Shown here piece after piece: positions 26,729 to 43,597 of a stretch of DNA of 63,264 nucleotides; the stretch's first letter is position 1; the number at the start of each line of letters is the position of its first letter. Both the position numbers and the translations under genes were made by a program. The DNA is from Azospirillaceae bacterium (GTDB lineage: Bacteria > Pseudomonadota > Alphaproteobacteria > Azospirillales > Azospirillaceae): NCBI GenBank assembly GCA_035645145.1, contig DASQNC010000040.1, positions 1 through 63,264 of the forward strand, in the 5' to 3' direction. The notes beneath the pieces are model-generated. The model made no database searches. It was not told where the DNA came from and saw only the letters and a list, made by a program, of their open reading frames with translations.

Positions 26729-28310
26729 GGCCCCGCGGCCCGGCGCGCCCCGGCCCGCTCCGCTCCGCTCCGGCACGCCCCGATCCTGCGCGACCCGGGC
26801 CGCCACGGCCGGGGCCGCCTTTCGGCCCGCTGCCCTTTGGCCCGCTGCCCTTTGGCCCGCTGCCCTTCGGCCCGCCGCCCCTTGGCCCGCCGCCCCTTGG
26901 CCCGCCTTTGTGGTCGGGACCCTGGCGGTCGGCGTTCTTGCGTTCGGTGCCCTTGGCGGCGCCCTTCGGTCCGGCCGACGGTTTCGGCTTCGCGCCCGCG
27001 TGTGCTTTCGCCTCCGCCGGGTTCCGGTGGGTTTTCCCCGCGGCCGGGCGGAACGGCTTGGCGCCCCGTGCCTCTTCGCGGGGGGTCTCGTCGCGGGATG
27101 CGGGACGGCCGGCCGCCTTGGAGCGCGGGCGGTCCTGGGCAAAGGTTTCTTCGTTCCGGCGGTCGGGTTTTGTGAACCGCTGGGTCCGGCCCTCCGGGAC
27201 CGCCGCGCGACGGGTGGGGGCGTCCTCCCGGTCGGCCGTCCGCACCCGCCCGCCGGCCTTGCGCGGGGCGGAGCGCTCGGAAGCCTCCTGCGAACCTTCC
27301 CAACGGCGCTGCGGCCCGGCGTCCCTGCCCCGGTCACGGGTCCGCTCGCGGTTCCCGGCCGACGTGGCGCGTTCGGGGCGTTCGGCGCGCTCGGGCGCGG
27401 GCCGCGACGGCCGGCGCGCGGGCGGCTCCTCCGTCCGGGGGCCGGCGGCGCGTTGCGGCTTTTTCGCTTTGGCCGGAGCGGTCCTCGGCCGCGGCGCCTT
27501 GAGCCCCAGCGGCTCGTCCGCTCCGCCGGCGGCTTGGCCGAGGCTGCGGATCTGGTCGCGGATCACCCGGGCCGGAACCTCCTCGACCGCGCCGCGGGGC
27601 AGCTTGCCCAATTGGAACGGGCCGTAGGAGATGCGGATCAGGCGCGTGACCTGCAGGCCCAAGTGCTCCATCACCCGGCGCACCTCGCGGTTCTTACCTT
27701 CGCGCAGGGCCACCGAGATCCAGGCGTTGGAGCCCTGTTCCTGTTCCAGCGTGGCGGCGATCGGGCCGTAGACGATGCCGTCCACCACCACGCCCTCGGC
27801 CAGCGCCTCCAACTGCGCTTCGTTCACTTGGCCATGGACGCGCACGCGGTAGCGGCGGATCCAGCCGGTGGTCGGAAGCTCCATGTGCCGGGCAAGCTCG
27901 CCGTCGTTGGTGAGCAGCAGCAGCCCTTCGCTGGTGATGTCCAGCCGCCCGACCGAGACCACCCGCGGCAGATCCGGCGGCAGATGGTCGAACACGGTCT
28001 CGCGGCCCTTCTCGTCGCGGGCCGTGGTCACCAGGCCGGATGGCTTGTGGTAGCGCCACAGGCGCGGCGGCTCGGGCTCGGGCACCGGCTTGCCGTCGAC
28101 CACGATGCGGTCGCCGGGCCGGACCACCACGGCGGCGCTGTCGAGCACGCGGCCGTTCACGGCGACGCGGCCTTCGGCGATCCAGCGTTCGGCGTCGCGG
28201 CGCGAGCAGAGCCCGGCACGGGCGAGGCGCTTGGCAATGCGCTCGCCGACCTTTCCGCCGGTGCCGTTCGGGATGTCGTCTGCGGTGTCGTCGGGGGGAA
28301 TATCGGTCAT
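26709..28310 (-). CDS. rluB: 23S rRNA pseudouridine synthase (RluB type), long basic tail
   Basis: A 533-residue protein. An S4 RNA-binding domain (about residues 20-70) precedes the RsuA/RluB/E/F catalytic domain, with the signature [20 protein letters not shown] (catalytic Asp) and [13 protein letters not shown]. The enzyme core ends near residue 255. The remaining 275 or so residues are Arg/Lys/Gly/Pro/Ala-rich, low complexity and presumably disordered, ending in PKGSG repeats. Such basic extensions occur in alphaproteobacterial homologues, but this one is longer than the enzyme. RluB rather than RluE/F is inferred. It overlaps rsmD by 20 bases. Confidence 0.88.
26819..26900. repeat. 15-bp tandem repeats in the rluB tail
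   Basis: About five consecutive degenerate copies of a 15-base unit resembling GGCCCGCTGCCCTTT. On the minus strand they encode GPKGS/GPRGG pentapeptides in the disordered C-terminal tail. Unit length is a multiple of three, so copy-number change keeps the reading frame. Confidence 0.8.
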
Positions 28311-29085: not shown

Positions 29086-29184
29086 CCTCTCCTCCTGGTG
29101 GGCCCTGAGCCCGGACAACAAGGGGCGTTTCCCGGCCGTTCCGGCCGAACGCCGACACCGCCCGCCGACACCGCCCATTGACGG

Positions 29185-42083: not shown

Positions 42084-42312
42084 TGACTTGTCTCTTTGTT
42101 GAAACCTTTGCGGCGGCCCCGAAGCGCTCCGGAGTGCATGACGTCCACGGCCTTTTGGACGCATGCGTTCGTTCCGGGCTGCGGCCGGGCGAATCGTACC
42201 GTCCTGCAACTCCGCGCCGGGGTGCGCATTTGGGGCATGGCGGTGGGGCGCTCCATGCAAGGAAAACGCGCGAAACCCCGCCACGTGCCCGACCCTACGG
42301 CGGTGGAGACGG

Positions 42313-43597
42313 TTGCTCGTTCGATTGGCGAACCGGTGGGAACTGCTGCGGACCTCCCTTTGGTTCCTGCCCAACCTTCTGGCGGCGGCGGGGTCGAGGA
42401 TGCCCGCAGCCTGCTCTCGACGCTGCTGTCGTCCATGATCACCATGACCAGCCTGGTGTTCTCGATCACCATGGTGGTCCTGGCCCAGGCCGCCAGCCAG
42501 TTCGGGCCCCGGTTGATCCGCAGCTACATGGCCGATCCGGGCACCCAGGTGGTCCTGGGCATCCAGGTGATGACCATCGTCTACCTTCTGCTGGCGTCTA
42601 CCTTCTGCTGGCGCTCCGCGGCATGGACGGCCGCACCGGCGCAACCGCGCCCCATGTCGCCGTGACGCTGGCCAGCGGCCTTTCCCTGGTATCGATCCTG
42701 ACGCTGCTGTTCTTCATCCACGCGGTCGGACGTTCCATCGTGACGGAAACGATGGTGGGCAGGTTGGCCGCCGAACTGGATGCCCACATGGGCGATCTTC
42801 CGCCGCTGGCGGAGGGGGCGAACGGGACCGGAACCGCGGACGAAGGCGCCCTCCTGCCCGAGGATTTTGGCGCCCGTGCCCGGACGGTGCCGCTGGCGCT
42901 GGAGGGCTATGTGCCGTCGGTGGACTATCCGGCCATCGCGGAGGCCGCCCGGGCGGCCGGTGTGCTGGTCCAATTCGGCCTGCCCGCCGGCGCGTTCCTG
43001 ATCCATGGTGCGCACCATGTGCGCGTCTACCCGGAGGAGCGCGCCTCGCCCGAACTGGTGCAGGCGATCACGGCCGCGGTGATGGTGGGCAGTCTCCGTA
43101 CACCGGTCCAGGACATCGAGTTCTCGATCCGGCACCTGGTCGAGATCGCCGTGCGGGCCCTCTCGCCGGCGATCAACGATCCGTTCACCGCGGCGGCCGT
43201 CATCGACCGGTTGGGGGTGGCGTTCTCGCGCCTGCTCGGCCGGTCGCTGGGCGAGGGGGTGCACCGGGACTCCGGCGGTGTCCCGCGGGTGTTCACCGTC
43301 GTCCCCACCCATGACGAGGTGCTGGACATCGCCCTGCGCCAGATCCGCCATGCGGCCAGGAACACGCCGGCCATCATCGTCCAGCTTCTGGAAATGCTGG
43401 CCGAGGTGGCGGCCTTCGCCCGGACCGACGCCGCACGGGCGGCCCTGGCCCGTCAGGCCGATATCGCCGCCGCCGCCGGGTGCCACGGCCCGATCGAGCC
43501 CTCCGACCGCGCCCTGATCGAGGCCGCGCACGCCGCCACCCGCGAGGCGCTGGCCCGCTGCGGGAGCGCCGTGGACGTACCTTCGCCAGCCGTTTGA
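42313..43597 (+). pseudogene. DUF2254 membrane protein, disrupted
   Basis: The remains lie in three frames. The N-terminal part, in the frame of 42313, gives RLANRWELLRTSLWFLPNLLA. The second frame gives ARSLLSTLLSSMITMTSLVFSITMVV and runs to IVYLLLA. The third (to 43597) carries RGMDGRTG..., FFIHAVGRSIV, RTPVQDIEFSIRHLVEIAVRALSPAINDPFTA and the C-terminus. In DUF2254 proteins the first two blocks are separated by more membrane sequence, so an internal deletion near 42385 is inferred. The second shift is explained exactly by a 17-base tandem duplication. The start codon is uncertain. Confidence 0.8.
42579..42612 (+). repeat. Exact 17-bp tandem duplication in DUF2254
   Basis: GTCTACCTTCTGCTGGC occurs at 42579-42595 and again at 42596-42612. 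Removing one copy gives the codons ATC GTC TAC CTT CTG CTG GCG CTC CGC GGC ATG, which joins the two downstream frames into the expected DUF2254 sequence. Confidence 0.97.

Follow-up and report, generated by a model that had tools for sequence, protein, structure and literature searches.

The window, by which we mean the whole 63,264-nucleotide stretch of DNA analyzed here, carries a DUF2254 gene on its plus strand, and this locus is most likely an ordinary pseudogene of an accessory gene, the only DUF2254 gene found in the genome, that has been disabled by two lesions (probability about 0.92). The gene is spread over three reading frames, with the lesions at the two places where the frame changes, and its parts are as follows.

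About 42313 to 42392, plus strand: piece A, the N-terminal part of the DUF2254 gene, read in a frame of its own (codon starts at 1 mod 3) and matching positions 4 to 27 of the family model with 13.4 bits alone
42381 to 42393, plus strand: lesion 1, where about 85 nt (82 to 88 nt) have been lost on balance, with the junction inside GGCGGCGGCGGGG
About 42387 to 42611, plus strand: piece B, which encodes DUF2254 helices 2 and 3 and uses a different frame (0 mod 3), model positions 54 to 123, 107.3 bits
42579 to 42595, plus strand: lesion 2, the upstream of two copies of the 17-mer GTCTACCTTCTGCTGGC, located where helix 3 ends
42596 to 42612, plus strand: lesion 2, the downstream copy of GTCTACCTTCTGCTGGC, which shifts the frame
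42596 to 43597, plus strand: piece C, helix 4 and the C-terminal soluble part in a third frame (2 mod 3), model positions 118 to 434, 284.5 bits

The loss of about 85 nt removes most of transmembrane helix 1 together with the loop behind it and shifts the frame, and the 17-bp duplication at the end of helix 3, which may have arisen by replication slippage or misaligned repair, is a second frameshift. Both lesions presumably persist through the dispensability of the gene in this lineage. The first-pass annotation had also described a DUF2254 pseudogene with a frame-breaking duplication and a net loss of membrane sequence, and the frames and spacing reported below support that description.

Membership in the DUF2254 family (PF10011/IPR018723), a family of predicted membrane proteins, is clear from two profiles. 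The curated cut-off of PF10011 is 28.8 bits, and the window exceeds it in two different frames with 91.6 and 207 bits: piece B, in the 42096 frame, covers profile positions 40 to 110 (E value of 5.6e-26), and piece C, in the 42083 frame, covers positions 104 to 367 (E value of 4.9e-61) and ends at a stop codon at 43595 to 43597. This change of frame within one profile bears out the earlier claim that the frame is lost at the duplication. The second profile is a family model built from 28 intact DUF2254 copies, out of 30 that are full length (the other two are without a locus), to which the three pieces of the window were matched separately. Pieces A, B, and C follow one another in order on this model, with a gap of 26 positions between the first two and an overlap of 6 positions between the last two. 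The overlap corresponds to model positions 118 to 123, which are six residues encoded twice by the duplication. Three frames, and not one continuous frame, thus cover the DUF2254 profile, and for this reason the locus is regarded as a pseudogene of the family rather than as a working member.

The same three frames are recovered independently of homology, as the third-position GC signal changes codon phase at approximately 42370 to 42390 and again at approximately 42600, with values of 0.95 in piece B and 0.88 in piece C. Piece A, which includes the start of helix 1 (LWFLPNLLAAA), is short and weak when taken alone (13.4 bits), and this counts against the pseudogene reading. In a six-frame scan of the window, it scored 25.9 bits and was the best of 1082 open stretches, the runner-up reaching 2.3 bits. 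A possible TTG start at 42313 is suggested by the lengths of the relatives and by GGAGA at 42305 to 42309, and reading from this probable start ends at a TGA codon at 42436 to 42438, after 41 codons.

The second break, which had been placed near 42385 with different frames on its two sides, is confirmed by the score of piece A in its own frame and by the shift in codon phase, and its junction can now be narrowed to 42381 to 42393. The conserved P of the LWFxP motif and the conserved R of the xxAR motif are 32 nt apart in the window versus 38 to 40 residues (median, 39) in each of the 22 close relatives with an intact gene; a count by eye in Paracoccus gahaiensis also gave 39 residues. Six more distant rows of the 28, with spacings of 34 to 42 residues, were excluded from this count. 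Measured against intact DUF2254 proteins in this way, the missing segment comes to about 85 nt (82 to 88 nt) and takes most of helix 1 and the loop behind it; model positions 28 to 53 are absent, so that the N-terminal membrane segment is incomplete and the earlier impression of dropped membrane sequence was correct. The close intact members differ from the window copy in having one frame and the full P-to-R distance, whereas the window copy has three frames and has lost most of helix 1. A structural model of the intact P. gahaiensis protein contains long helices at residues 19 to 36, 56 to 92, 104 to 128, and 137 to 184. On this model, which is of moderate confidence (3-row alignment; mean pLDDT of 69, and below 50 over residues 1 to 52), lesion 1 is predicted to remove most of the first helix and lesion 2 to lie near the end of the third.

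The duplication itself is unambiguous. The two copies of GTCTACCTTCTGCTGGC are exact and lie head to tail, and the exact 17-bp tandem duplication at 42579 to 42612 that had been noted from the letters was found both by a position search and by TRF, which reports 42578 to 42613 with a period of 17 and 100% matches. The 17-mer occurs at no other place in the window on either strand and has no further copy in the 3.89-Mb genome with up to 1 mismatch allowed. In order-2 Markov simulations of the window (n = 200), scanned for exact tandem duplications of periods 10 to 60, a period of 17 bp was reached in 0 of 200 and the largest was 14 bp; 137 simulations were free of exact tandem duplications, and 63 had one or two. 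The run of matches at period 17 is 19 bases long, and the ends of the unit consequently share 2 bp (CG), which at this length may be either microhomology or coincidence. A slipped-strand origin, as suggested in the first-pass annotation, is compatible with these observations. The potential hairpin at the duplication is unconvincing (DNA fold z score of −1.93, with 7 of 200 shuffles as good). The two copies show 0 differences over 17 paired sites, which bounds their divergence loosely at best, and the recent age that had been assigned to the duplication is weakly supported. That the gene was already damaged when the duplication occurred is likewise an inference, since the sequence gives no order for the two lesions.

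Exact tandem duplications are also present elsewhere in this genome. The window contains five with periods of 10 to 60 and units of 13, 15, 15, 15, and 17 bp. The 13-bp duplication, at 29150 to 29176, lies between two genes as judged by eye from the list of open reading frames. A region at 26818 to 26905 consists of a 15-bp unit repeated approximately 5.8 times with 93% matches, a period that preserves any reading frame. A 232-kb sample of contig C71, in which genes were called crudely as open frames of at least 150 codons, has 8 exact tandem duplications of periods 12 to 80. Six of these have a 12-bp unit, five of them in frames with coding-like GC and the sixth in a frame without it (third-position GC of 0.60 and second-position GC of 0.65), and the 17- and 37-bp duplications lie where a stop-to-stop frame begins. 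A 17-bp tandem repeat on C71, at 128309 to 128359, has three copies of an unrelated unit and stands at the start of an open frame. The description of the DUF2254 duplication as unusual is thus weakly true, and in a local sense: among exact duplications with a period of at least 12 in the window and the 232 kb, it is the sole out-of-frame one placed in a likely gene body, given these crude calls. No further out-of-frame duplication was placed in the genes of this sample, a pattern that is consistent with a gene that has escaped selection and that disfavors an assembly error of a common type.

This observation bears on the explanation that one or both breaks are artefacts of assembly or sequencing and are absent from the cell. 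The genome is a draft assembly of 74 contigs, the GC content of the window is about 70%, and both lesions are known from this single assembly, which counts against the pseudogene reading. Such an error would have to account for two different lesions in one gene, both accompanied by a shift in codon phase. Among the likely gene bodies of the window and the 232 kb, no second out-of-frame exact duplication with a period of at least 12 was placed. In addition, typical sequencing reads are longer than the 34-bp array. An artefact is therefore highly unlikely, and a pseudogene carrying two real lesions remains the preferred interpretation.

The duplication was further proposed to be a reversible on/off switch. 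In its most developed form, changes in the copy number of the 17-mer would toggle DUF2254, and translation from an upstream start in the B frame would give a protein without helix 1. The unit is not a multiple of three and is inside the gene, which is the first property expected of a gene that is phase variable by repeat copy number, and no stop interrupts the B frame upstream as far as a TTG at 42096. The fission-yeast gene ssp1 provides a comparison. Reverting short tandem duplications in coding regions are described for this yeast gene in the review PMC13207564, which cites Dan et al. 2021 for microhomology-mediated tandem duplication in ssp1, and the likeness is that the duplication is short, lies within a coding region, and leads to a premature stop. 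The ssp1 duplications are described as reversible and as affecting an otherwise usable gene, whereas the duplication in the window has unit ends that share 2 bp and is accompanied by a second lesion that does not revert.

The array in the window has only two copies, and the net loss of lesion 1 cannot revert, as there is no template from which the missing nucleotides (about 85 nt, upstream of the duplication) could be restored. A change in the number of 17-mers would give no full-length protein and would leave the upstream frame break and its sequence loss in place. Between 42310 and 42399, the third-position signal follows frame A (0.83) and not frame B (0.53), and it is weak between 42250 and 42339; the B-frame leader is outside the Pfam match and looks hydrophilic by eye; and all 28 intact copies used keep a P-to-R spacing of 34 to 42 residues. 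The switch is unsupported because lesion 1 cannot revert, and we regard it as exceedingly improbable. A truncated product from the B frame is a formal possibility. There is next to no likelihood that a new start upstream drives a helix-1-less frame running from B to C and that the 17-bp duplication toggles it, which would make a truncated DUF2254 protein phase variable in an alphaproteobacterium.

It has also to be considered whether the split gene is alive by re-initiation, with the fragments being made separately and assembled in the membrane. Frame A ends in a stop that shares bases with a start in frame B (ATGA, 42435 to 42438), the same holds for the stop of frame B and a start in frame C (GTGA, 42662 to 42665), and the pieces stay open and conserved. 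Overlaps of a start with TGA are, however, often expected by chance, and these two are probably chance; a product begun at the second would lack the first part of piece C. Re-initiation would also leave helix 1 mostly missing, and 0 of the 30 full-length copies have a stop inside the DUF2254 match. Re-initiation is hence scarcely credible here, and the pseudogene reading is retained.

The gene is well kept outside its lesions, and this is a point against a dead gene, which must be either lately dead or partly still usable. Neither piece B nor piece C is interrupted by a stop along the stretch that is homologous to the family. In columns that are invariant in the 22 close copies, 2 of 22 are changed in piece B (L to Q and F to Q, in helices 2 and 3) and 2 of 28 in piece C, and the same test applied to single intact copies gives 0 to 2 changes in 22 to 24 columns for B and 0 to 3 in 28 to 31 for C, L039 being the only one of the 22 with two changes in B columns. 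Leave-one-out scoring puts 3 of the close copies below piece B and all 22 above piece C, and both pieces beat the six distant copies. The death of the gene is probably not ancient.

DUF2254 is patchily present among relatives. In the relatives set (119 genomes), a match was found in 28, including the present one, and none was found in the sole listed congener; no second copy was found in the same genome. In a sample of 385 genomes from the class, 15, again including its own, matched piece C at an E value of 1e-20, and piece C as a protein was matched by 101 of 72,556 plasmid records, all with less than 60% identity, which places DUF2254 on plasmids too. A search of genome contigs found 3 loci, none of them from a near relative, and viral contigs contained no relative. 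With a 66-bp query spanning the duplication, plasmids gave no match, and a DNA search of 59 relatives found no near-identical region outside the own genome, with partial hits at 67% to 97% identity. The closest of the 28 intact copies over piece C is a plasmid copy of Skermanella mucosa (44% identity), and over piece B, two loci (L028 and L032) are the closest at 68%. Relatives with named records (Skermanella and Indioceanicola) originate from soil, sand, or sediment. A tree was computed from 39 rows, comprising piece C, the 28 intact copies, 3 named loci, and 7 of 16 class-level loci. It does not place piece C in any small group with good support, and descent and transfer are not separated; the branch of one row, L072, is very long, and this row may have been misread.

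In the relatives set, the 36 matched rows correspond to 34 copies; 30 of these are full length, and the other 4, including that of the window, are broken or partial. Two partial copies, covering model positions 1 to 114 (genome G066) and 264 to 384 (genome G003), are located at 951 to 1721 of L056 and 1102 to 1875 of L049, respectively, away from contig ends. The remaining one is on plasmid pSR-1 of Skermanella rosea (G034; NZ_CP086112.1, 22748 to 25844), where the halves (L075 and L055) are annotated as two DUF2254 proteins; they cover model positions 1 to 158 and 157 to 434 and have an IS1595-family transposase gene between them. The S. rosea copy resembles that of the window as a second, independent inactivation of DUF2254 in the same family, Azospirillaceae, and differs from it in mechanism, as the break was made by a mobile element, with the pieces meeting at model position 157/158, whereas the window has a tandem duplication and a loss. 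Together with these split and partial copies, the present case suggests that DUF2254 is dispensable and has been repeatedly lost in Azospirillaceae. The locus is a well-resolved case of gene death, for which a single pseudogene, rather than several DUF2254 proteins, is the appropriate annotation.

No function for the DUF2254 family was found in the portions of the literature searched, and the accessible part of PMC11184937 mentions DUF2254 for predicted knots and gives no function. In a fold search with the P. gahaiensis model, 0 of 595 PDB matches reached an E value of 0.001; a designed repeat protein and 14-3-3 chains were rejected as fold relatives, their best E values of 0.047 or worse not being meaningful, and no solved structure related to piece C was found up to an E value of 1. 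A link to defense systems was likewise rejected, as the two frames queried gave no PADLOC or NCBIfam match up to an E value of 0.1.

A repeat search within the gene found nothing more of weight, and a promoter scan found 0 sites versus a mean of 0.2 in shuffles. To the left of the DUF2254 gene, on the minus strand, are genes for a calcineurin-like phosphoesterase and a glycosyltransferase, and to its right are genes for a methyltransferase and UbiD. In the congener, by identities assigned by eye from translations, the phosphoesterase and glycosyltransferase genes are together beside other genes and the methyltransferase gene is on another contig, and no DUF2254 gene was seen at either of these two places. 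Terminator-like sites number 2, versus a mean of 1.1 in shuffles.
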